25,526 nt of DNA. Origin: a virus. The notes under the pieces were generated by a model. The model saw only the letters and a program-made list of their open reading frames with translations, was not told the DNA's origin and did no database searches. The stretch is taken from positions 1 to 25,526 of IMG/VR virus record IMGVR_UViG_3300042484_000361; one strand, written 5' to 3'. The position numbers and the translations under genes were made by a program. Positions 168 to 10,620 of the stretch are shown piece by piece; within the stretch, counting starts at the first letter, position 1; each line of letters begins with the position of its first letter.

Positions 168-857
168 TTATTTCTTCTCACCGAACAGTTGTAACAAGTT
201 TAAGAACAAGTTGATAAAGTCCATATATAGAGTTAGTGCGCCACGAACTTCTGCAACATCACTGGTTTCTATACTAAGTTCTTCACGAATCCTTTGTGTA
301 TCGTATGCTGTCAATCCGAGGAAGATGATAATTGCCAATGCAGAAATTACCATCTGCATTAGTGTTGAGCCAATAAAGATGTTGACAATACTGGCAATAA
401 TGATAGCAATCAAGCCTACGAACATAAACTTACCAACGCTATCTAGGCTACGTTTAGTAAAGTATCCATAGCCACTCATTACCCCAAACAATATAGCCGC
501 GCCCATAAATGCAGACACGATACTACCCATATTAAACACAGCAAAGATTGTGGCAAAACTTAATCCCATTAGTGCCGCAAATCCATGTAAGCATAACTGT
601 GCTACACCCTTACTAGGATTATTACCTAGGACCATAGCAACACCAAAAATTGCTACCAATGGAGCAAAGATTACAATCCATTTCATTACACCTGTAAAAA
701 AGAACGCTAGTAACTCTGGGCTAGTGCCTACAAAGTAACTGACGATCATTGATACAATAACAGCAAGACTCATATGTCCATAGACACGACCCATTGCTGA
801 ATTAATTTCGCTTGCAGAACGATATGACATTCCGTTTTCATAAGTTGTTTCAAACAT
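168..857 (-). CDS. Bax inhibitor-1 / YccA-family integral membrane protein
   Basis: The 229-residue protein is a polytopic membrane protein with about seven hydrophobic segments after a roughly 25-residue soluble N-terminus. Length and layout fit the BI-1/YccA/YbhL family (UPF0005): an N-terminal S-A-x-E-I-N segment before TM1, a G-x-x-L-x-F-A-type TM3 and a C-terminal T-A-Y-D-T-Q-R-I motif just before the last segment, which is characteristic. Known members act in the inner membrane as pH-dependent ion leaks, and E. coli YccA binds and restrains the FtsH protease. In a phage it could modulate host membrane or FtsH activity, which is inference. AAAGGAG lies 8 bases before the ATG, and a GTAAATA late-like box overlaps the end of the upstream glycosyltransferase gene, so it may have its own promoter. 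Confidence 0.88.
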   Translation of the reverse strand: MFETTYENGMSYRSASEINSAMGRVYGHMSLAVIVSMIVSYFVGTSPELLAFFFTGVMKWIVIFAPLVAIFGVAMVLGNNPSKGVAQLCLHGFAALMGLSFATIFAVFNMGSIVSAFMGAAILFGVMSGYGYFTKRSLDSVGKFMFVGLIAIIIASIVNIFIGSTLMQMVISALAIIIFLGLTAYDTQRIREELSIETSDVAEVRGALTLYMDFINLFLNLLQLFGEKK

Positions 858-869
858 AATATTCTCCTT

Positions 870-2069
870 TTAGTATTTACTCTCTCTGGTATGTTTGCGA
901 TAGTCTGTGTCCATACGCAACCACTGTTGTCCCTTACCCTCTAGAATATCACAGATTCTATCAATAGTACCATCAGTCCAATCACTGATTTTACCTTGAT
1001 TCATATGCGGCTGATGTAACATATTATACAACTTAATTGCCGCATCTTCAACACTCCAGGGCGCATACATTCTTGTATAATCATTCGCAAACGTTTCTGG
1101 GAAACTGCGATATGCTGGATACAACACATTACAACCCAAACTATCTGCTTCGCTAACTGTATTGCTTACCCAATCTTGTAACGCACAGTTAAACAATATT
1201 CTAGTATCGTTCAATAATTCATAGTATTGATTCTTATCTAGGTCTTCATGTATCTTCAACAATCCACGTTTTTGCATATCTTCTGTACGCTTCATATAAC
1301 TGTCGTTGTTGCTTTTTAGTTTACTGCCACTGAACACACAGAATTCTACACCACGATATACACCATGTCGATCCTTCATACCATAACGATTAAAGAATTC
1401 TTCAATCACATCCATATAAAAGTCGGGCTGTTTTTCTTGATCCCAACGAGCACTGAATGCAATACGCATTGGTCGTTCGTTAAACGGCTTGATGTTATTG
1501 TTGATTCGACTGCGGACTTCTTCTTTGCCAAATGCTAGACCTGAGATATTGTAGATCGGTGCCTTCCAACCTGCAATCTTCATATGCATAACCATTTCTT
1601 CATTACTAGCAAGTACGCCATCAACAAATGAATCAACCATTTTCTCATAGTGACCCATAAACTCACTCATGCCCCATACATGTACGAAATCATCAGGGTC
1701 AATACTTTGTGCTAGGCAACGAACAAAAATCTTGGGACGACTTGTGATCGGGATTTGTTTCATAATGTAGGGTAATGATTCTATGCCTGGTTGAAACATA
1801 TCTTCAAAATATACAATATCACCTGCACCAACCTCACCTTGCTTCATCATCTTAACTAGATTCATAAGTTGACTCATGCCAAAGTATGTGCGACCGTGTG
1901 CATCTAATACTTGGCCAGTGACAATAGCTTGATCGTTAGTTAGTGTTTCGCCGGGTACAATAACATAGTTAATACCTCTACGTTTGAACACACTTTCATT
2001 CCAATCTTGTAACTGCAATGTATATCTTGCTTTGTAAGGCTCTAGGCCCATATAAAATAACTTATGCAT
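870..2069 (-). CDS. GT-B fold glycosyltransferase (group 1 / GT4-like)
   Basis: A 399-residue protein with two Rossmann-like halves. The C-terminal half has group-1 glycosyltransferase features: an ...RIAFSARWDQEKQPDF strand-loop (about residues 203-218), and a L-F-N-C-A...S-N-T-V-S-E-A-D-S-L-G-C segment (about 294-315) that matches the sugar-nucleotide-binding E-x(7)-E region. It should transfer a sugar from an NDP-sugar, but the acceptor is unknown. It starts inside the end of the nucleotidyltransferase-cupin gene (8-base overlap), so the two are probably translated together and may act in one pathway. Possible acceptors are a virion protein, host surface glycan or modified DNA base; none is shown by the sequence. 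Confidence 0.8.
   Translation of the reverse strand: MHKLFYMGLEPYKARYTLQLQDWNESVFKRRGINYVIVPGETLTNDQAIVTGQVLDAHGRTYFGMSQLMNLVKMMKQGEVGAGDIVYFEDMFQPGIESLPYIMKQIPITSRPKIFVRCLAQSIDPDDFVHVWGMSEFMGHYEKMVDSFVDGVLASNEEMVMHMKIAGWKAPIYNISGLAFGKEEVRSRINNNIKPFNERPMRIAFSARWDQEKQPDFYMDVIEEFFNRYGMKDRHGVYRGVEFCVFSGSKLKSNNDSYMKRTEDMQKRGLLKIHEDLDKNQYYELLNDTRILFNCALQDWVSNTVSEADSLGCNVLYPAYRSFPETFANDYTRMYAPWSVEDAAIKLYNMLHQPHMNQGKISDWTDGTIDRICDILEGKGQQWLRMDTDYRKHTRESKY
874..880 (-). promoter_or_regulatory. Late-like promoter box (GTAAATA) for the Bax-inhibitor-like gene
   Basis: Read on the minus strand, GTAAATACT lies 16 bases before the ATG at 857, with AAAGGAG between. It overlaps the last codons and stop of the upstream glycosyltransferase gene. 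It differs from the ATAAATA boxes elsewhere in the window at one base, so confidence is lower. Confidence 0.4.
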
Positions 2070-2820
2070 TTTCTCTTTCTATATCTAGTTCATCACATTC
2101 TTCTCCATATTGTATTTCTACAATACGACATGGTGTATCATATGGATTACTTAGCTGATGCCAATCACCCTGTAAAATTTTTACTTGACTTAATGTAGTT
2201 AATTCCATAGGAGGTAAAAAAGAACCGCAGGACAATTTTGTATCTAATATACACTTACCTTCTGTGACATGCCAGAATTCATGTCGTTTAAAATGTCTTT
2301 GCATACTTAAACTTTTACCTGGCTCTACTGTTAGTTCTTTTACTTTACACCCACTTACATCATGCAGTATACGATAATACCCCCATTCACGCAATGTTTT
2401 AGGTTGTTTCCATTCACGCAGAATCCAACTACTACTATTCATTTTGTTTTTGCCACCGACCCCAAATATAAATTCTACATCATCGAAGACCATTTCAGGT
2501 ATGTTATCTTTAGTTCTGTCTCCTCCATTAGCAAATATGATACTTGCTTTTGGATGTAGTTTTTTAACTTGTTTGATAGCATCGATTGCAGTATCATCAC
2601 TATCATCAAATTCTATTACCTTATGTACCTGATATAGGTTTTCAATGATTGCTTTTCGTTCAGTGATAGGCATAAAAGGTTGACCTTTTTTACGGGTCAA
2701 CCATGCGTCACTGTTTACTCCTACTATTAGTAAGAAGCCTAATGCCTTAGCAGCCTTGAAATATTCAATATGACCACTATGTAGAGGATCAAATCCCCCG
2801 GTGACTAGTACGACTTTCAT
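2062..2820 (-). CDS. Fused cytidylyltransferase-like (HIGH) domain and cupin domain
   Basis: The 252-residue protein joins two domains. Residues 1-145 are a HIGH-superfamily nucleotidyltransferase of the RfaE-C/TagD type: GGFDPLHSGH at 8-17 binds the nucleotide, and NSSSWI near 128 stands where the family's ISSTxI signature lies. Residues 155-240 are a cupin like that of type II phosphomannose isomerases, with H176, H180 and H221 and a P-G-x-S-L-S-x-Q-x-H strand. NDP-sugar activation plus sugar isomerisation is the natural reading. I chose the ATG at 2820 rather than the upstream in-frame ATG at 2856 because it forms an ATGA overlap with the preceding gene and begins right at the beta strand before the HIGH motif. 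It is followed by a glycosyltransferase. Confidence 0.85.
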   Translation of the reverse strand: MKVVLVTGGFDPLHSGHIEYFKAAKALGFLLIVGVNSDAWLTRKKGQPFMPITERKAIIENLYQVHKVIEFDDSDDTAIDAIKQVKKLHPKASIIFANGGDRTKDNIPEMVFDDVEFIFGVGGKNKMNSSSWILREWKQPKTLREWGYYRILHDVSGCKVKELTVEPGKSLSMQRHFKRHEFWHVTEGKCILDTKLSCGSFLPPMELTTLSQVKILQGDWHQLSNPYDTPCRIVEIQYGEECDELDIERENA

Positions 2821-3023
2821 CGGCGAATTGCATCTTCCCATGAATCTTTTGCCCACTTGCCACCAAGTTGTTTAGTATGCTGGCGATATGCAAAACTACG
2901 CATATCATAAAGTGTTGATTCGTCAAACTTGTAACCATAGTCTACGCAGAATTCTAGATATTTTTCCAAATCATCAAAAATTTGATTGACACGGGGATTA
3001 GTTTGAAATTGTTGTTTTGCCAT
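2817..3023 (-). CDS. Small hypothetical protein (68 aa)
   Basis: A soluble 68-residue protein rich in aromatic and charged residues, with a predicted helical centre (FDDLEKYLEFCVDYGYKF) and a basic C-terminus ending in two arginines. The frame is open further upstream to 3170, but that part is antisense-like to the real QueD-like gene. The ATG at 3023 has AAAGGAA 9 bases upstream and starts just after the QueD-like gene ends. The stop overlaps the start of the nucleotidyltransferase-cupin gene as ATGA. I do not recognise a family. Confidence 0.75.
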   Translation of the reverse strand: MAKQQFQTNPRVNQIFDDLEKYLEFCVDYGYKFDESTLYDMRSFAYRQHTKQLGGKWAKDSWEDAIRR

Positions 3024-3036
3024 TTTAATAATTCCT

Positions 3037-3489
3037 TTAAATAGCGAGTGATTGATAAGGAGCGTGTGTGTTATACACGATTGTTGCGCCGTTTTCATTA
3101 TCTTCTGATACTTGAATAACGACATTGCGTTTTGGATATCGAGTTGCGATAACATCATAGAGGTCATCACTAATCATTTCACAACTTTTGTAATCCAATT
3201 GAAGAATGCCTTGAGAATATTGATTCTCTAACCATCGCTTGAATTGAATAAACTCAATATCCCTGTCGTTGTGAAATACTTCAATCGTCACTTCAAAATG
3301 AAAGATATGACGATGCGGAGTTGCTAGAAAGCTAACATCATACTCATCACCTGTTGCCAAGTTAGGGTCTGTTGCTGCCGCTGGGTACTTATGAATGCCT
3401 TCTTTTTGAAAGCGAACAAAAATTGTACGTACTGCTTTATCTTTAATGCGCTGACGTTGTTCAGTCAAGGCTTGTGTTTGTTGTTCCAT
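3037..3489 (-). CDS. QueD/PTPS-like T-fold protein (6-carboxytetrahydropterin synthase-like)
   Basis: From the ATG at 3489 (GGAGAT just upstream) the protein has 150 residues, the size of QueD/6-pyruvoyl-tetrahydropterin synthases. FQKEGIHKYPAA (27-38) fits the F-x-F-x-A-A-H strand, PHRHIFHFEV (58-67) the zinc-binding H-G-H-N strand, and FIQFKRW (80-86) the 'viDF-x-x-lK' strand. SEDNENG (128-134) sits at the catalytic K-E-T position. H33, H59 and H61 could bind zinc. The catalytic Cys before HGH in E. coli QueD is absent, although C103 lies in the region of the family's D-H-H-x-L-N to T-S-E-N segment. So the fold call is moderate and the standard QueD reaction is unproven. QueD normally makes a precursor of 7-deazaguanines, and a TGT-like enzyme is encoded two genes upstream. 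Confidence 0.55.
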   Translation of the reverse strand: MEQQTQALTEQRQRIKDKAVRTIFVRFQKEGIHKYPAAATDPNLATGDEYDVSFLATPHRHIFHFEVTIEVFHNDRDIEFIQFKRWLENQYSQGILQLDYKSCEMISDDLYDVIATRYPKRNVVIQVSEDNENGATIVYNTHAPYQSLAI

Positions 3490-3491
3490 TA

Positions 3492-4070
3492 TTATCTCCA
3501 ATAAGGGCCCCATGCCCATCCAATTAATGACCATCTAACACCAGATTTAACTAGTGTAACTTCGTGTGTAAATGTACTAGGAAACAAGGTGGCGCTACCT
3601 TTAGATTTACCACCTATGTTTCTACCTAATACTAACAATTCACCACCTGTGTATTCTGAACTGTCAGTTAATTGTACACTCATTGTAATCTTTCTGTCTA
3701 TATCTTTGGACAGACTATAATAATTATCTACGTGTTTTCCAAAGAAATCTTTAGAAGTATACTTTTTAACCTCATACGGTTCTACAAAGTCAATATTAAA
3801 TTCTAATTGACTAATTGCTTGATTCCATACTGGTTGCAACAAATTATAAATCTCATGTTCTAATGATAAAATACATGAGTGAAAACTGATGCCAAATACA
3901 TGTGGATATTTATTGATACCTTTTGATACCCTATTGGATACAAGATCAATAATATTATCGCACATATCTGAGCTAATTACATTATCGACAACTATAACTC
4001 GCTTATTAATATCCCACTCTATTTCTGGTTTAGGTAGAGTGGGTATTAATTTAAAATTATCGGTCGTCAT
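3492..4070 (-). CDS. 2-oxoglutarate/Fe(II)-dependent oxygenase (prolyl-4-hydroxylase/PKHD-like)
   Basis: This 192-residue protein has the double-stranded beta-helix signature of 2OG-Fe(II) oxygenases. Iron ligands are H113-x-D115 in GKHVDNYY and H169 in STFTHEV, and R179 ten residues on binds 2-oxoglutarate. Y-T-G-G-E-L at 140-145 is the usual strand before the distal His. Such enzymes hydroxylate proteins, nucleic acids or small molecules; many T4-like phages carry one with unknown substrate. It overlaps the coiled-coil gene by 14 bases and ends 2 bases before the QueD-like gene. Because it lies between a TGT-like and a QueD-like gene, a nucleic-acid base is a possible substrate (inference). 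Confidence 0.88.
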   Translation of the reverse strand: MTTDNFKLIPTLPKPEIEWDINKRVIVVDNVISSDMCDNIIDLVSNRVSKGINKYPHVFGISFHSCILSLEHEIYNLLQPVWNQAISQLEFNIDFVEPYEVKKYTSKDFFGKHVDNYYSLSKDIDRKITMSVQLTDSSEYTGGELLVLGRNIGGKSKGSATLFPSTFTHEVTLVKSGVRWSLIGWAWGPYWR

Positions 4071-4269
4071 CTACGTCTACTGTGTCATGGTCATTATCCC
4101 ATTGCGCTCTAATCATTGTACGCAATTCGGACATATATTTGTCTTTTGTTTCTATCAATTTTTTCACTTTACTAATATCAGTACTACCTTCTTTTTGTAA
4201 TTGAAAGATTTGATTATCTAACAATCTAACTGATTCTTCTAGTGTTTTAATACGATTTTTATATGGCAT
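4057..4269 (-). CDS. Small coiled-coil protein (70 aa)
   Basis: A 70-residue, highly charged protein with heptad-like spacing of Leu/Ile/Val from about residue 6 to 55 (LEESVRLLDNQIFQLQ and onwards), then a strongly acidic tail (DTVDVDDDR). It has no catalytic motif. The ATG lies just past the stop of the TGT-like gene, whose last codons contain the GGAGAA ribosome binding site, and its end overlaps the oxygenase gene by 14 bases. It could be an oligomerisation partner of one of these enzymes, but that is a guess. Confidence 0.7.
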   Translation of the reverse strand: MPYKNRIKTLEESVRLLDNQIFQLQKEGSTDISKVKKLIETKDKYMSELRTMIRAQWDNDHDTVDVDDDR

Positions 4270-4270
4270 A

Positions 4271-5824
4271 TCATTCTCCTAAAACTTCATTGATTGCGTC
4301 ATCACTGTCCTCAATGACTTCATCAATCTCAGGCTCACTATTATTTACTTCAAACAATTGGTCAAACATTGTCATAGCATTCATTGCTTTCTTACCACTA
4401 AAACCCTGACTACCTGACTTCATTTGCATCCAGAAGCTACTATGTGATTCTATCATGTCTAGACTCTTTTGTCTATCGTTTTGTGCAAATATCTTATCTA
4501 CAATTTCACCAAAGTGTTCTTCATCAAACTGATTCATAACCATCTTAGGCATAATGCCTGTTTCATATCTACGATTGGCTTCTTGCACAGCAGACATATG
4601 CGTAAACACATTATGGCTCTGTAGTAGAGTATAGCTTAATGTATCCCAACTTGTTTTTGTTTCTTTACCATGTTGACCTAAGAAACCTTGTCCTCGATAA
4701 CAAAGGTCCTTTAAGGTCAGTAGATCAGTAACTGGGCTATCAGTAAACGTTTTATGGATACCCTCAGCCAATACAGCATCTCTAAACTTACGGGTGTCAC
4801 TGGCATAACTCTTTTTCTCGGCAGTTTTTTCCATTTGATATGACCATTTCTTGTTATGTTCAATGGCTGTGTTAAAGTATGCTAGACCTTTAGCCGCACT
4901 AAAGAATGGGCTTGCACAGTCAAATGTGATTCGTAGATTTGGATTATGATATTTACGAATAGCTTTTTGAATGTCAGTAAACAGTACAGCGTATTCTAAG
5001 ATTGACACACCCAAACAGTGAATCAAATCATGCTTGCCCTCAACTAGCAATCCATCGTGAATAATGTTAACAAGTCTACGCAACATCAAGTGTACGTCAA
5101 TCTTATTCTGACCACCGAATGCCCATCCATTGAAATGATTGTCTGGATACACATTTGGATCACAATACTTTTTCATTTCTTCATACCAGTCATCACTCTG
5201 TGTATGATTACGACCTTGCAATACATTTAAGAATTTGCAGTTGCCGTTACGATGTTTAATGAAATATTCATTATTGATGTGTGTCGCAGAAATTGCTTCT
5301 TCAATTGTGCTGATGCCGTGAGCACTTTTACCTGTTTTAGGATCTTTGATATGAAAAGTACTTAATGATTGTGACGGGATATCTAAACACATACCATAGT
5401 CCATGTATGTATCCATCCAGTTCAATACTGCTTTACGCTTAATCATAGCACGTGGGCAGTTAGGATCTTTCCAGTCTGCTGGCCACTGAGCTTTTAGAAT
5501 CTGAAATCCACCACTGTCACCTAACATAAACGTACCAGCTTCACGTTCTCTGATGATTGATTCACTAGGATCGTTGACTGTTGTATCTAAGTTAGCATGA
5601 CCTGCACTGTACAAACCCCACTTATAATAGTAAAGACCTTCTTTGCTATTAAGAAAGTTTAGTTTCTCTACATCACCGTTGAATTGAGCAGGGATACGTG
5701 CAGGATCAAAATACTGTTCACCTTTACGTTGCTTACCCAAGCCAGAAATATAAAAACTACTGACTGCTGGTAAGAACAATGCCCAATCGTTGTTGTGACT
5801 TGCTGATAGATTTACTTGTTCCAT
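4271..5824 (-). CDS. Queuine tRNA-ribosyltransferase-like enzyme, candidate DpdA-type DNA transglycosylase
   Basis: A 517-residue protein whose motifs follow tRNA-guanine transglycosylase (TGT) in order: DSGGFQ at 103-108 (general acid/base Asp and base pocket), NVLQG at 200-204, FGGQ at 236-239, HCLGVS at 269-274 and FDCASP at 301-306, where D302 aligns with the nucleophilic Asp of the TGT F-D-C-V-x-P-T-R motif. The zinc site C-x-C-x-x-C...H that normally ends TGT is not visible, and the C-terminal 200 residues are unlike TGT. That is typical of the DpdA group, which exchanges guanine in DNA for a 7-deazaguanine. The start forms a TAATG junction with the preceding gene. Other readings are a tRNA-acting TGT paralog or an inactive relative. 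The TGT fold is well supported; the DNA substrate is inferred. Confidence 0.8.
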   Translation of the reverse strand: MEQVNLSASHNNDWALFLPAVSSFYISGLGKQRKGEQYFDPARIPAQFNGDVEKLNFLNSKEGLYYYKWGLYSAGHANLDTTVNDPSESIIREREAGTFMLGDSGGFQILKAQWPADWKDPNCPRAMIKRKAVLNWMDTYMDYGMCLDIPSQSLSTFHIKDPKTGKSAHGISTIEEAISATHINNEYFIKHRNGNCKFLNVLQGRNHTQSDDWYEEMKKYCDPNVYPDNHFNGWAFGGQNKIDVHLMLRRLVNIIHDGLLVEGKHDLIHCLGVSILEYAVLFTDIQKAIRKYHNPNLRITFDCASPFFSAAKGLAYFNTAIEHNKKWSYQMEKTAEKKSYASDTRKFRDAVLAEGIHKTFTDSPVTDLLTLKDLCYRGQGFLGQHGKETKTSWDTLSYTLLQSHNVFTHMSAVQEANRRYETGIMPKMVMNQFDEEHFGEIVDKIFAQNDRQKSLDMIESHSSFWMQMKSGSQGFSGKKAMNAMTMFDQLFEVNNSEPEIDEVIEDSDDAINEVLGE

Positions 5825-6189
5825 TAAACTTTTACTTCTTCTTTTATCAATGCTTGAACAATACTAAGTTGTTCTTCTTTTTGCTTAAGCTGTTCCAACA
5901 GGTCTCTGATAGTAGAGTTTGTTTCTGCTAATTTGTTGCGCTCGGCCTCTTCTAGCATTTTCTTTTCAGCCCACTTTAAAATAGTAATAGCATTAGGTGT
6001 TAGATTGACCACAGCACTACCACCACCTATAGTTTGCCAATTGTTACCGTCAAACACTTTCATGTTTCCACTACTAGATTCGTATGACATTACACCTTGC
6101 ATAGGTTGACTAGAATGACTAATATAGGGAGTTGCTCCCTTATTACTAGTCACATTCATGAACTCACCACCGACGATATAATCAATCAT
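5824..6189 (-). CDS. Hypothetical phage protein with beta N-half and coiled-coil C-half
   Basis: A 121-residue protein in two parts. The first half (to about residue 65) is Ser/Gly-rich and beta-like, with a V-M-S-Y...K-V-F-D-G-x-x-W-Q-T-I-G-G-G motif that resembles repeats in virion or fibre proteins. The second half is a charged amphipathic helix (WAEKKMLEEAERNKLAE and onwards to 115). ATGATT at 6189 overlaps the clamp stop as ATGA, which supports this start; an internal Met at residue 11 is an alternative. It sits between clamp and TGT-like genes and probably shares the clamp transcript. I do not know its function. Confidence 0.75.
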   Translation of the reverse strand: MIDYIVGGEFMNVTSNKGATPYISHSSQPMQGVMSYESSSGNMKVFDGNNWQTIGGGSAVVNLTPNAITILKWAEKKMLEEAERNKLAETNSTIRDLLEQLKQKEEQLSIVQALIKEEVKV

Positions 6190-6917
6190 TTTGCGTTAGC
6201 TGGGAGTAAGTAACGATATGTTGCAAGACCACTGTCAACTGTAATTTCAGTTGCACCTGCATCTGCAATTTTGATTGTCTTGTCACCGGGCAAGTCTAAG
6301 ATAGCTTGAAACACTTTAACGGGCCAGTGCCAGGTCTTATTCAATGTTCCACCTACACTAGGTTGAAACACAAAGTTACCACTGTGAGTTGATGGATCAC
6401 CAAAGTTGATTTTCAAGTCACCGTTAACTGTAGTCATAGTGAAATGTTCTTGTTCACTATTAGCACTTGCTTGTTTCTTCAAACGCTGAATACCTGCAAT
6501 GCTAGGCTGAAACTCAACATTCCAAGTAGTACCTTTAAATGTAACACTCTTAACTTTTTCTTCAACGATTGCTTTGCTCATTAGTCGATAGTCATTGACG
6601 AATGAACCATCTTTTGTTTCAAAGTGAATTGTTGTTGGGATATCAACACCATCACGATTAGAAGTTGCTACACTAATCTTAGCATCAGTATCATAGTCAT
6701 CAAAGCCTAGAATTGTTTTAAGTTTACCTAAGTTAGGCATACCAAACACTCCGATAAAGTCTGCTACTGGACTGTTTAATGTTCCAGATACAATAACAGT
6801 TTTATCTTCTGCTACTGCATTAATTTGTGTCTCTGTATCAGTACCAGTTACTTTGATAAGGTCTACGTTACCGAGACCATGTGTGTGTTGAATTAAATCT
6901 TGTAAATTATCTTTCAT
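6186..6917 (-). CDS. 45: DNA polymerase sliding clamp (T4 gp45-like)
   Basis: A 243-residue protein of the size and pattern of T4 gp45, the trimeric ring that tethers the phage polymerase to DNA and also activates late transcription. The P-V-A-D-F-I-G-V-F-G-M-P-N-L-G-K-L segment (about 50-66) is characteristic of gp45, and the C-terminus (...ATYRYLLPANAK) fits the final strand of the second domain. It lies directly downstream of the polymerase gene with its own sigma70-like promoter in the 77-base gap, and AAAGGAA before the ATG. The clamp-loader genes 44/62 and regA, which separate 45 from 43 in T4, are not present here. Confidence 0.93.
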   Translation of the reverse strand: MKDNLQDLIQHTHGLGNVDLIKVTGTDTETQINAVAEDKTVIVSGTLNSPVADFIGVFGMPNLGKLKTILGFDDYDTDAKISVATSNRDGVDIPTTIHFETKDGSFVNDYRLMSKAIVEEKVKSVTFKGTTWNVEFQPSIAGIQRLKKQASANSEQEHFTMTTVNGDLKINFGDPSTHSGNFVFQPSVGGTLNKTWHWPVKVFQAILDLPGDKTIKIADAGATEITVDSGLATYRYLLPANAK

Positions 6918-6994: not shown

Positions 6995-9712
6995 TCACCC
7001 GAATGTAAATAAATCATTGAATGTGCTATTAGTATCTGTATTGCTACGAATATCCCAATCTAATACGCCCAACAAATTATCAATCTTTTCATCGACCAAT
7101 GTTTGTTCCATTGCCGAATCGTCAAATGGTAGTTCACAGAACCATTGTGGTAATCGTAGTTCATCAACCGGGTAAGCAATACTTGTAAACCCTAAAGCAT
7201 TTGATTTAAGTTTACAAACAATAACCTTCATACCATCGATAATCTTTTGACTATATTGATCTCCGTTTACTCTACGCAAATAATTGTAATTAAGTGCGGC
7301 TCTTACGTGACCGGGCATGTTAGCACGACCTGTTGCACTCTTAGATTCTAAGTCACCATAGTATGTAAGTTTGTTTACACCTTTAGGTGAACCTTTAGTC
7401 CAACTGTCTTGTGCAGTTAGTATCCGCTTAAAGTCTTTGATAGTCTCAATTACTTCTTCACGACCTTTACCTTGTTGAAGAACCATCTGTAATACATTCA
7501 TTAAGAATTCTTGTACATACTTAGGTGTGTCAGCACGTTTCAAGTCAAGACCCATAGCTTTGATATCACCAAGAGAACCGTCTTTGTCCTTACGCTTACC
7601 TTCTTTATCAAAAATATTAATAGCATAACGCTTCTTGACCATAAAGATAGCACGATCACCGATCAGTTCACGACCAGCTTTAATGATTTCACCATTCTTA
7701 CGCGGCGCATGAAAAGCTTTCTCCATGAATTGAGGGAAACTATCGTTTGCATTGTCTGCAATGCCATCATATAAGCCAATACAAGTTTCTTTATTCCATT
7801 CTAATGCACCAGATTCAATCTGAGGCTTTAGTGTTGGGTATGCAGTAAAGTAACATGAGTCAGTATCACCATACACAATTGCATTGCCTTCATGTGAGTA
7901 GACACCTTCAACTGTTTCATTGATGGTACTCATCATATGCTTGACAATCTGACGACCACTTAATGTAACACTTTGACCGATACGCTTATCATAGAAACGA
8001 CAATGTTCATTCAACAATGCACCATATGCTGAGTTCAATAAAATCTTACGAACAAGTTGACGCTTATCGTAGTAATCAAATTTATCAGTGCCATACGCTT
8101 CTTTAGCTTGCTTCTGAATTGCTTTACGTTCTGTGTACCATCGTGTAAGTAGACCGGGTACAACACCTTCTTTTTCATAAGTAAAGATTGTACCATTCGC
8201 ACTTAGCATCCAGGGACGATGACTATCAAAGACCATCTTCCATATCTCTGCCGCACTCATTTCCTCACTACGACCATCTTCGTAATCTACAGTAAGGATA
8301 GTACCACGCTCTTGATTCATAATAGCTGTGTACTCTAACGCACCAAACAAGTTTTCCCATAGAATACTACCTGTAACAGCATCGTCACCTTCTTTAGCAC
8401 GTTTCTTTTCACTTGCTAAACGATGACCTTTATCATTCATGTATTGGTCTGTGAGTGTTTGTCTGACCTGAGCAACGATGGTTTCTCCTGCCATGTTGAG
8501 GGCACGAATAACCGAGGGATAGAGTGAGTTAATGTCAACTGCTCCGACCCATTCGTGCATTCCCTTCTTGGGCGTAGCAACAAAGGCACCTGCCGCCTGC
8601 TGGACTTCTTCTGCATTTTCAACCTTTCGTTTTTTATCTGGAACAACTAGCCCACGTTCGTGAGCCTCATTAAAAATTGCCATCTCAATCATTGCTACTG
8701 AACCCATAACTGTTGGAAGCAGTACCGTGTTCTCATGTGCAAGTTGATTAGCTAATTCTAAAAACTTAAGTTTGTTGTGAATCTTCACCAACAACATAGT
8801 ATCTTGTCTATTGTATTCAATGAACTTTTTAAAGTCTTTGTTATACAGTTGGTCAAGAGTACCTTCATATTGTGTTTTGTTCTCACCGACTTCCATCTCA
8901 CCGATAGAGTCTAGTTTATAACTGTGGCGTGATTCATAGTTATACTTTTTGTACAACTGTAGATAGTCCAAGTGAATACGACCTACTAAGTCATAAGTTG
9001 TTTCACTCTTACCGAATCGTTCGTACTCACGTGCTTTAGGTAATTGACCCATCAAGCAAAACTTGCGTGTGTCATCTTTACTCATCACACGTGTAACACG
9101 ATTGACCATGTAGGGTATATCATACCCCTCTGAGTTCCAGCCAGTCAATACATCAGCATCATCTATTAGTTGAAAGAAAACATCAAACATTTCTTTTTCA
9201 GTTTTGAAAAGCATTGTATTCTCAAACTCATTAGTGATTTCTTGGGCTGTTTCACTGCTCATATGTTTCGGAGCAATCACTAATGTAATACATTGGTCTA
9301 GCCAATCTAAGTAGCAACTAATAGCAGTTACGGGATTGAATGGATCACTAGTGGGACTGAATCCTTTAATAGGATCAAAGTCTACCTCAATGTCAAAGAA
9401 GCATGTATGAAGTTTAGGAGCGTCAACGCCTAGATAGTTTTCACTTAGACAGCGAAAGACTACAGGCACATCACTTTCAAATAATTTTTTACCTGAGTGA
9501 ATACGCTTTTCTTTTTCAAACTCTGTGCGTTTGCGTGTACTGAAACGACTGACCGGATCACCATAGATACTACGCTGTTTGCCTTTAGGATCAGGATAAT
9601 ACAATACATAGTTTGTAGGATATTCTTTATACTGGCGTTTGCCATTACTATCTCTTTCAACTACATATATTCTGTCCTCATCCCTACTATGGATGGCATC
9701 CACATAACTCAT
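6995..9712 (-). CDS. 43: Family B DNA polymerase (T4/RB69 gp43-like)
   Basis: The 905-residue replicative polymerase carries all signature motifs. The 3'-5' exonuclease has F-D-I-E at 106-109 (D107/E109), G-W-N-S-E-G-Y-D at 191-198, and Y-N-R-Q-D at 300-304. The polymerase has DINSLYPS at 393-400 (motif A), KILLNSAYG at 556-564 (motif B) and YGDTDS at 614-619 (motif C). The C-terminal end FNDLFTF resembles the clamp-binding peptide at the gp43 C-terminus, consistent with the gp45 gene next to it. Length matches T4 gp43. Its start overlaps the DsbA-like stop as ATGA, so both are expressed from the promoter at 9999-10027. The gene appears intact, with no intein or intron. Confidence 0.97.
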   Translation of the reverse strand: MSYVDAIHSRDEDRIYVVERDSNGKRQYKEYPTNYVLYYPDPKGKQRSIYGDPVSRFSTRKRTEFEKEKRIHSGKKLFESDVPVVFRCLSENYLGVDAPKLHTCFFDIEVDFDPIKGFSPTSDPFNPVTAISCYLDWLDQCITLVIAPKHMSSETAQEITNEFENTMLFKTEKEMFDVFFQLIDDADVLTGWNSEGYDIPYMVNRVTRVMSKDDTRKFCLMGQLPKAREYERFGKSETTYDLVGRIHLDYLQLYKKYNYESRHSYKLDSIGEMEVGENKTQYEGTLDQLYNKDFKKFIEYNRQDTMLLVKIHNKLKFLELANQLAHENTVLLPTVMGSVAMIEMAIFNEAHERGLVVPDKKRKVENAEEVQQAAGAFVATPKKGMHEWVGAVDINSLYPSVIRALNMAGETIVAQVRQTLTDQYMNDKGHRLASEKKRAKEGDDAVTGSILWENLFGALEYTAIMNQERGTILTVDYEDGRSEEMSAAEIWKMVFDSHRPWMLSANGTIFTYEKEGVVPGLLTRWYTERKAIQKQAKEAYGTDKFDYYDKRQLVRKILLNSAYGALLNEHCRFYDKRIGQSVTLSGRQIVKHMMSTINETVEGVYSHEGNAIVYGDTDSCYFTAYPTLKPQIESGALEWNKETCIGLYDGIADNANDSFPQFMEKAFHAPRKNGEIIKAGRELIGDRAIFMVKKRYAINIFDKEGKRKDKDGSLGDIKAMGLDLKRADTPKYVQEFLMNVLQMVLQQGKGREEVIETIKDFKRILTAQDSWTKGSPKGVNKLTYYGDLESKSATGRANMPGHVRAALNYNYLRRVNGDQYSQKIIDGMKVIVCKLKSNALGFTSIAYPVDELRLPQWFCELPFDDSAMEQTLVDEKIDNLLGVLDWDIRSNTDTNSTFNDLFTFG

Positions 9713-9998: not shown

Positions 9999-10027
9999 AG
10001 TATACTTGGCGTATGTAAAGAAGTCAA
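9999..10027 (-). promoter_or_regulatory. Sigma70-like promoter for the dsbA-polymerase operon
   Basis: On the minus strand TTGACT (10022-10027) and TATACT (9999-10004) are 17 bases apart. The -35 overlaps the 3' end of tilS. The transcript would start near 9992 and carry AAGGAG before the dsbA-like ATG. The same two hexamers with the same spacing precede dnaJ at 25244-25272. Confidence 0.7.
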
Positions 10028-10620
10028 GTATTTTGCTTATTTTCTACAATCTTCTTTACCAAAGTATGAATGCCCGGATTGACCTTCAATACATGCGGCA
10101 TCATTTCATTGCGGATGTAATTTCTTGTATATTTGGTGTCCTTGTTTGATTCATCTTCAATCCAGGGAACATTATGTTGCTCACACCAACGAATAAATTC
10201 ACTTTTGCGAGTAGTTAAGAATGGGCGTAATACGTTGTTGCGAGTTAATGGAATAACTTTGGGTGTACCGTGTAAACTTGACCAAATATATGTTTCAACA
10301 CAATCGTCTAAGTGATGACATGTGATAACTGGTCCAAGTCCACTTAAAAATTCATAGCGTTCTCTACGCCAGTATTCTTCTTGACTTTCTTTACTACCCT
10401 TTTGACTGCGAGGTGAGCCGTACAGCATAGCAATATTATTATCACCACAATACCTAGAAACAAACTCACTGGCTTTTTCACCGTTTTGTGTTCTGTGATT
10501 AAAATGGGCGATTGTTACTTCGTGCTTGCGACTTAAAAAGTCAACAACTGCCATACTATCTACACCACCACTACATGCGACTGTGATACGTTTGGGTAAG
10601 GGAACGGTAATCTTAATCAT
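10024..10620 (-). CDS. tilS: TilS-like tRNA(Ile)-lysidine synthase, short form
   Basis: A 198-residue N-type ATP-pyrophosphatase: SGGVDS at 17-22 is the PP-loop, HHLDD at 102-106 with E109 the TilS active-site motif, RPFL at 132-135, and DESN...RNYIRN at 157-171 the family's tRNA-binding signature. TilS converts C34 of tRNA-Ile(CAU) to lysidine so that it reads AUA. Bacterial TilS usually has more than 300 residues; here the C-terminal domains are missing, as in minimal forms. No tRNA gene is in this window, so the target (host or a phage tRNA elsewhere) is open. No ribosome binding site precedes the ATG. Instead a TATAAT box lies 6 bases before it. Confidence 0.88.
   Translation of the reverse strand: MIKITVPLPKRITVACSGGVDSMAVVDFLSRKHEVTIAHFNHRTQNGEKASEFVSRYCGDNNIAMLYGSPRSQKGSKESQEEYWRRERYEFLSGLGPVITCHHLDDCVETYIWSSLHGTPKVIPLTRNNVLRPFLTTRKSEFIRWCEQHNVPWIEDESNKDTKYTRNYIRNEMMPHVLKVNPGIHTLVKKIVENKQNT

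Follow-up and report, generated by a model that had tools for sequence, protein, structure and literature searches.

Phage pathways built around DpdA have been described (Hutinet 2019; PMC6884629), and Enterobacteria phage 9g carries the set FolE-QueD-QueE-GatQueC-DpdA (Hutinet 2019; PMC6884629). In the 7-deazaguanines so far known from DNA, the base bears a small group such as cyano, amido, aminomethyl or formamidino (PMC6884629), with a few more reportedly added by Cui and colleagues in 2023. A deazaguanine synthesis and incorporation system is also listed for phage PA5oct in passages of Iyer et al. (2021; PMC7824862), and these passages link no glycosyltransferase to it; PA5oct carries relatives of the DpdA-like, T-fold and glycosyltransferase proteins considered here. 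The stretch of DNA analyzed here is a 25.5-kb viral genome fragment from a lake virus (IMG/VR virus record IMGVR_UViG_3300042484_000361; 25,526 nucleotides, hereafter the window), in which genes for a DpdA-like protein with the fold of tRNA-guanine transglycosylases (TGTs), a QueD-like T-fold protein and a GT4-like glycosyltransferase (GT) lie on the minus strand, in an operon that reads from high to low coordinates. We consider it probable that these genes belong to a QueC-less phage module for 7-deazaguanine modification of DNA, a judgment that covers the pathway and the DNA-modification core, with the sugar excluded.

Reportedly, Cui and colleagues found 2'-deoxy-7-deazaguanine and 2'-deoxy-7-carboxy-7-deazaguanine (dCDG) in phages in 2023, and predicted a decarboxylase of 7-carboxy-7-deazaguanine (CDG), named DpdL, leading to 7-deazaguanine in DNA. 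We know of no glycosyltransferase in that work on DpdA3 and DpdL. As a lead, the T-fold protein described below may be DpdL, and the transglycosylase may belong to one of the named DpdA subfamilies. The module resembles that of 9g in that a transglycosylase of the TGT family is encoded next to the clamp and DNA polymerase genes and that FolE, QueD and QueE are phage-encoded (here in relatives), but it differs in lacking QueC or Gat-QueC, in its additional T-fold paralogue and its conserved GT, and in a DpdA that cannot be aligned to 9g DpdA by profile. The alpha- and beta-glucosyltransferases of phage T4, which glucosylate a base of already replicated phage DNA, offer a likeness of function only to the role proposed here for the GT: their target is 5-hydroxymethylcytosine, whereas the partner base here would be 7-deazaguanine. 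What is new is how widely and consistently DpdA-like, T-fold and GT genes are linked, as are the divergence of the transglycosylase and the occurrence of related loci in bacteria.

The transglycosylase and its gene neighborhood

An earlier note on this DNA, made from its letters, had proposed that a TGT-like gene, a 2-oxoglutarate (2OG)-Fe(II) oxygenase gene and a QueD-like gene form one cluster. That cluster was recovered with the same strand and arrangement, although the note had omitted a 70-amino-acid open reading frame (ORF; 4057-4269) between the TGT-like and oxygenase genes, and had left out the conserved GT partner. The gene set is not a chance arrangement, because the 517-amino-acid TGT-like protein has 291 relatives in IMG/VR and the polB-clamp-DpdA-T-fold block is syntenic in relatives.

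The 517-amino-acid protein matched nothing in Pfam or PHROG and nothing of significance among PDB sequences, and its alignment used as a profile against PDB sequences found nothing; kinship to TGTs is therefore visible by fold comparison only. The earlier note had called for a structure prediction, and an AlphaFold2 model computed with 41 IMG/VR relatives in the input reached a predicted local distance difference test score (pLDDT) of 84.9 and a predicted template modeling score (pTM) of 0.85, with low confidence in the last ~48 residues. The solved structures nearest to this model are TGTs: the top 14 Foldseek matches in the PDB were all TGTs (best E 7e-7), with Cap10 next, and with a second aligner, VIA, residues 10-431 could be superposed on TGTs from bacteria, humans and archaea at Z scores of 19-20. 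Three aspartates are shared by 42/42 sequences without exception: D103 (in DSGGFQ), D148 and D302 (in FDCASP). These residues were matched by motif and order to the catalytic residues of TGTs, which we take to be those numbered D102, D156 and D280. The CxCxxC zinc motif is absent, and of the 7 cysteines in all, wide conservation was seen for C303 and C375 only. Model, fold search and missing motif together bear out the TGT fold without a zinc-binding tail that the earlier note had described.

The features of the region are as follows, from the upstream end of the operon, with the gene that adjoins the polymerase given first.

10024-10620, minus strand: PP-loop protein with the TilS N-terminal domain only, adjoining the polymerase (TIGR02432, 125 bits against a cut-off of 93.6)
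6995-9712, minus strand: polB, the upstream end of the operon as listed
6186-6917, minus strand: clamp-like gene, upstream of the DpdA-like gene
5824-6917, minus strand: 121-amino-acid ORF together with the clamp-like gene (phrog_12062; a distant homologue in Phosso is annotated as sliding clamp)
4271-5824, minus strand: candidate DpdA-like DNA-guanine transglycosylase, 517 amino acids (TGT fold in the predicted model, no zinc tail)
4057-4269, minus strand: clade-specific 70-amino-acid ORF, function not assigned, present in many close relatives and not in distant ones
3492-4070, minus strand: 2OG-Fe(II) oxygenase, 192 amino acids, accessory (PF13640, 2e-12)
3037-3489, minus strand: QueD-like T-fold protein, ~150 amino acids from ATG 3489 (phrog_17812, 1.4e-32; predicted model)
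2817-3170, minus strand: small ORF that follows the T-fold gene on its downstream side, with its last ~70 amino acids conserved in the clade
2062-2856, minus strand: fusion of an HldE-like nucleotidyltransferase with a cupin of the mannose-6-phosphate isomerase type (PF01467 and PF01050), a variable neighbor
870-2069, minus strand: GT4-like glycosyltransferase, the constant partner of the DpdA-like and T-fold genes
168-857, minus strand: putative YccA/Bax-inhibitor-like membrane protein, named from its sequence (synteny in loci L103 and L104)

Precursor genes and the proposed pathway

In relatives, FolE, a true QueD and QueE are encoded 5-11 kb downstream, just past the edge of the window. FolE and QueD were found in 14/16 long relatives, the two exceptions (L063 and L065) being contigs that end ~0.7 and 2 kb past the DpdA-like gene, and QueE-type radical S-adenosylmethionine (SAM) genes lie in the same stretch. 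In the nearest relatives, FolE, QueD and QueE come after the GT, with a YccA-like gene before FolE in L104. These genes were missed by the earlier note because the window stops 167 bases past its own YccA-like gene. Their presence beside this region supports the assignment of the DpdA-like enzyme to a 7-deazaguanine pathway, as that note had suggested. Its call to look for folE, queE and queC elsewhere was answered in part: folE and queE were located in relatives, off the window, but queC gave no convincing match. QueC was not found in 19/20 records (the one hit, in G001, of 23 bits over ~63 positions, was not counted), nor in ACP17, PA5oct, Phosso and RHph_I1_18. The expected precursor is therefore CDG or a derivative and not preQ0; probably it is CDG itself. 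In the QueE of the window's clade (L103:14489-15379), the cysteine motif of radical-SAM enzymes appears to be split by ~35 inserted residues, which lie between CxxxC and the final C.

In the proposed pathway, phage FolE, QueD and QueE, encoded off the window, would convert GTP to CDG. The T-fold protein would then act on CDG, most likely by decarboxylation to 7-deazaguanine, and the DpdA-like transglycosylase would exchange guanine in newly replicated phage DNA for this base. The GT4-like enzyme would act in the same pathway and may, with less assurance, transfer a sugar onto the inserted base, while the oxygenase would be a passenger or would perform optional tailoring. Some points weigh against this scheme. 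Profile comparison showed no convincing similarity to the named DpdA proteins (probabilities from hhalign of 0.4% for 9g DpdA, 15% with E 0.002 for ACP17 gp123 and 4% for X1), and the DpdA reading therefore rests on fold, residues and context. Moreover, removal of the 7-substituent would leave a bare C7 with no obvious acceptor hydroxyl for ordinary O-glycosyl transfer, so that the GT would need to form a C-glycoside, to use another substituent or to act at another pathway step. A wider proposal, in which phages and bacteria share a widespread and hitherto undescribed class of systems that glycosylate 7-deazaguanine in DNA, with DpdA installing the CDG-derived base and the GT adding a sugar, possibly as a C-glycoside at C7, is offered tentatively, and we rate it a little below even.

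If such a base exists, sugar-bearing 7-deazaguanine would be a new class of DNA base and a new route around restriction and CRISPR defenses. A role would also be proposed for two families previously without one, phrog_17812 and the DpdA-linked GT. Metagenomic viral contigs contain many relatives of the module, and others are found in the cultivable phages PA5oct, Paride, ACP17, X1 and BUCT-ZZ01; the claim is therefore testable on virion DNA.

The glycosyltransferase as a constant partner

The GT protein of the window matched PF13524 only (0.0079); stronger matches were obtained for its homologues in X1 (PF00534, 8e-12) and BUCT-ZZ01 (PF13692, 2.5e-6; PF00534, 5.5e-6), and a profile of the family run against the PDB matched GTs. 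With regard to motifs of the E-K and E(x7)E type, EK and the C-terminal Glu are invariant in 13 sequences, and the first Glu is replaced by Asp in the window's clade.

Linkage of the GT to the other two genes was consistent however the loci were chosen. Of the close loci with 6 kb or more of downstream sequence, 37/37 have the GT within that flank. Among independently seeded loci filtered for 6 kb on both sides, it was present in 30/30 seeded with distant DpdA, 30/30 with close DpdA and 34/37 with the T-fold protein; among GT-seeded loci, 79/80 had at least one pathway gene and 76/80 had DpdA or the T-fold gene. Only the GT, T-fold, DpdA and replication-block genes, among the window genes tested, have counterparts in distant phages. 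The GT and T-fold genes are immediate neighbors in ACP17, PA5oct, BUCT-ZZ01 and Phosso and are two genes apart in X1, the order of GT, DpdA and T-fold genes varies between phages, and in BUCT-ZZ01 a 64% identical GT adjoins a different type of transglycosylase; one inherited fixed operon alone therefore cannot explain the link. A tblastn search of 50,697 phage records found the GT in 4, all of them T-fold carriers, and the more distant GTs of PA5oct and Phosso were detected by profile only. In T-fold phages that have a small transglycosylase-like gene of the phiST/RHph/Ahp1 type nearby, the GT is absent genome-wide. It was found in 0/8 viral loci with the small type versus 55/60 with window-type DpdA (Fisher p 1.7e-7, with relatedness of the loci ignored). 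As a guess, these small proteins could be transglycosylases of the DpdA3 kind.

It could be hypothesized instead that the GT is a hitchhiking surface-polysaccharide gene and that the DNA carries plain 7-deazaguanine or CDG. A sugar nucleotidyltransferase/cupin gene does adjoin the GT in the window and in 25/37 close loci with enough flank, and variable phage GT clusters for O-antigen change are discussed in passages of Iyer et al. (2021; PMC7824862). However, the GT is retained whether or not the nucleotidyltransferase is there; the GT tracks DpdA and the T-fold gene across different gene orders, across two types of DpdA and into bacterial loci, and it is missing where the small transglycosylase-like gene is used. 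Hitchhiking thus seems unlikely, although it is the best surviving of the alternatives considered here, and the HldE/cupin gene, variable as it is and absent from distant phages, was rejected as a core part.

Two marine phage loci (L346:4708-11112 and L360:4761-11129) carry QueD, QueE, FolE and a polymerase-like gene, followed further on by a GT that overlaps a ~395-amino-acid DpdA-like gene, and a clamp-like gene; in L360, a phosphoribosyltransferase-like ORF follows FolE. No T-fold gene was seen in either fragment, which suggests that the GT is bound more closely to DpdA than to the T-fold protein. A second, different GT4-type gene lies near DpdA in BUCT-ZZ01 (L121:5364-6707) and Sulfitobacter (L411:13083-14318) and could serve in disaccharide formation. 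In the literature library that was searched, no paper links a glycosyltransferase to 7-deazaguanine DNA.

The T-fold protein as distinct from QueD

The T-fold protein belongs to phrog_17812 (1.4e-32) and matched no Pfam family, that of 6-pyruvoyltetrahydropterin synthase (PTPS) included, but its predicted model is a T-fold nearest to QueD and PTPS. The gene probably starts at ATG 3489 and not at 3534, 2 nucleotides past the oxygenase stop and with GGAG upstream, which gives a protein of 150 amino acids. In the family, the three zinc-binding His of QueD (here H48, H74 and H76) and the C-terminal Glu are invariant, and an S-x-E motif is kept. The fold, the three-His site and the C-terminal Glu are shared with Escherichia coli QueD (4ntk) and PTPS; in contrast to E. 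coli QueD, the protein is without the catalytic Cys and co-exists with a true QueD. The Cys before HxH was found in 1/298 T-fold proteins with HxH, versus 115/117 true QueD loci. The T-fold kinship to QueD that the earlier note had noticed therefore stands, whereas its use of the protein as the precursor-making QueD does not, and the easy reading of this protein as the pathway's own QueD is corrected.

It might still be a second, specialized QueD making CPH4, as the retained fold, the three His and the Glu would allow, but a true QueD with the Cys motif is encoded in the same phages, and given the near-complete loss of the Cys we regard this as improbable. Three phages (ACP17 of Acidovorax, BUCT-ZZ01 of Synechococcus and phiST of Cellulophaga) have both the T-fold gene and a true QueD in close proximity, together with FolE and QueE, and the family occurs alongside FolE, QueE and QueD in Phosso, RHph_I1_18 and X1 as well as in those three. 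The T-fold protein is accordingly presented as a candidate CDG-processing enzyme. Fusions of the T-fold domain to other N-terminal domains were seen in Vibrio phage Bakedbeans (L423:4215-5366) and Chryseobacterium phage MA9V-3 (L425:4452-5333).

DNA or tRNA as the target

Because the fold-search matches of the transglycosylase are tRNA enzymes and the region also contains a TilS-like gene, the protein could be thought to act on tRNA, in a phage tRNA queuosine pathway. This is very unlikely, since the protein has no zinc site, unlike tRNA TGTs, and no Pfam TGT match, its gene adjoins replication genes (clamp and DNA polymerase) like the DpdA gene of 9g, and relatives have no convincing QueC. 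The 517-amino-acid protein is best read, on its modeled fold, as a distant DpdA with DNA as the predicted target. A divergent relative is encoded in Vibrio phage 2.275.O within an annotated cluster of QueF, transporter, queuosine-protein and FolE genes. At that locus (L119:7797-10727), the relative is accompanied by QueF, FolE, a transporter of the Vut_1 type and a protein that resembles amidoligases (PF12224, borderline), and perhaps the phage makes an amide-bearing 7-deazaguanine.

The oxygenase as an accessory gene

The oxygenase matched PF13640 (2e-12) and has the HxD...H iron ligands, as the earlier note had reported. It scored best with phrog_61, a phage family, and with models of PKHD-type hydroxylases, and no base-oxygenase family of the TET/JBP type was among the matches in searches of Pfam, PHROG and other models. 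Between DpdA and T-fold genes, the oxygenase was found in 10/68 close loci that have both, the other slots being empty or filled by unrelated genes. The family profile detected it in 16/80 close loci, and in distant loci in 2/80 seeded with DpdA, 2/78 with the T-fold protein and 0/80 with the GT. The model of the earlier note, in which the oxygenase oxidizes the inserted 7-deazaguanine as an integral step, draws on the gene's position in the window, its intact ligands and its greater frequency in the window's own clade, but it is the least likely of the readings considered, on grounds of this conservation pattern and of the families matched. The gene is accessory, either a passenger or an optional tailoring step. 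In other phages (L025, L026, L028, L030, L034, L036 and L048), the same slot holds one or two copies of a ~280-amino-acid protein starting MKYKKIITCGC, which from their sequences look SGNH-hydrolase-like.

Other features of the window

A tRNA scan of the window found none. The earlier note had suggested expression from the clamp promoter; a promoter and terminator scan gave no more matches than shuffles did, and sigma-70-like sites were no commoner there than in shuffles. The TilS-like gene (10024-10620) is kept in many close relatives, but none of the distant loci examined showed it; it scores as TilS, and as a substitute for QueC it was set aside.

Bacterial cousins

A scan of GTDB genomes gave 60 loci, some of them phage-like contigs in metagenome-assembled genomes that carry the full module. 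PADLOC found no match for the module or for its bacterial cousins. In alphaproteobacterial loci, the GT is beside or near a DpdA-like gene (Azospirillum, Rhizobiales, Pelagibacterium, Pseudooctadecabacter, Shimia and Sulfitobacter), and in Sulfitobacter, Rhizobiales and Azospirillum a transporter of the YhhQ/Vut_1 type is encoded next to them, with the Sulfitobacter match slightly under the Pfam cut-off. No FolE, QueD or QueE was found in the bacterial stretches examined, so these loci may use a host or imported precursor. The cousins suggest that the module may also mark host or mobile-element DNA.

Six loci on alphaproteobacterial chromosomes (L411, L406, L372, L371, L430 and L431) look mobile, with YhhQ-type transporter, GT, DpdA-like and recombinase-like genes, and have a large neighbor of 540-895 amino acids to which no function was assigned. 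In Sulfitobacter and Pseudooctadecabacter, the T-fold gene lies ~11 kb away with variable cargo between; this cargo differs between the two and includes a cytosine-methyltransferase-like ORF in one of them.

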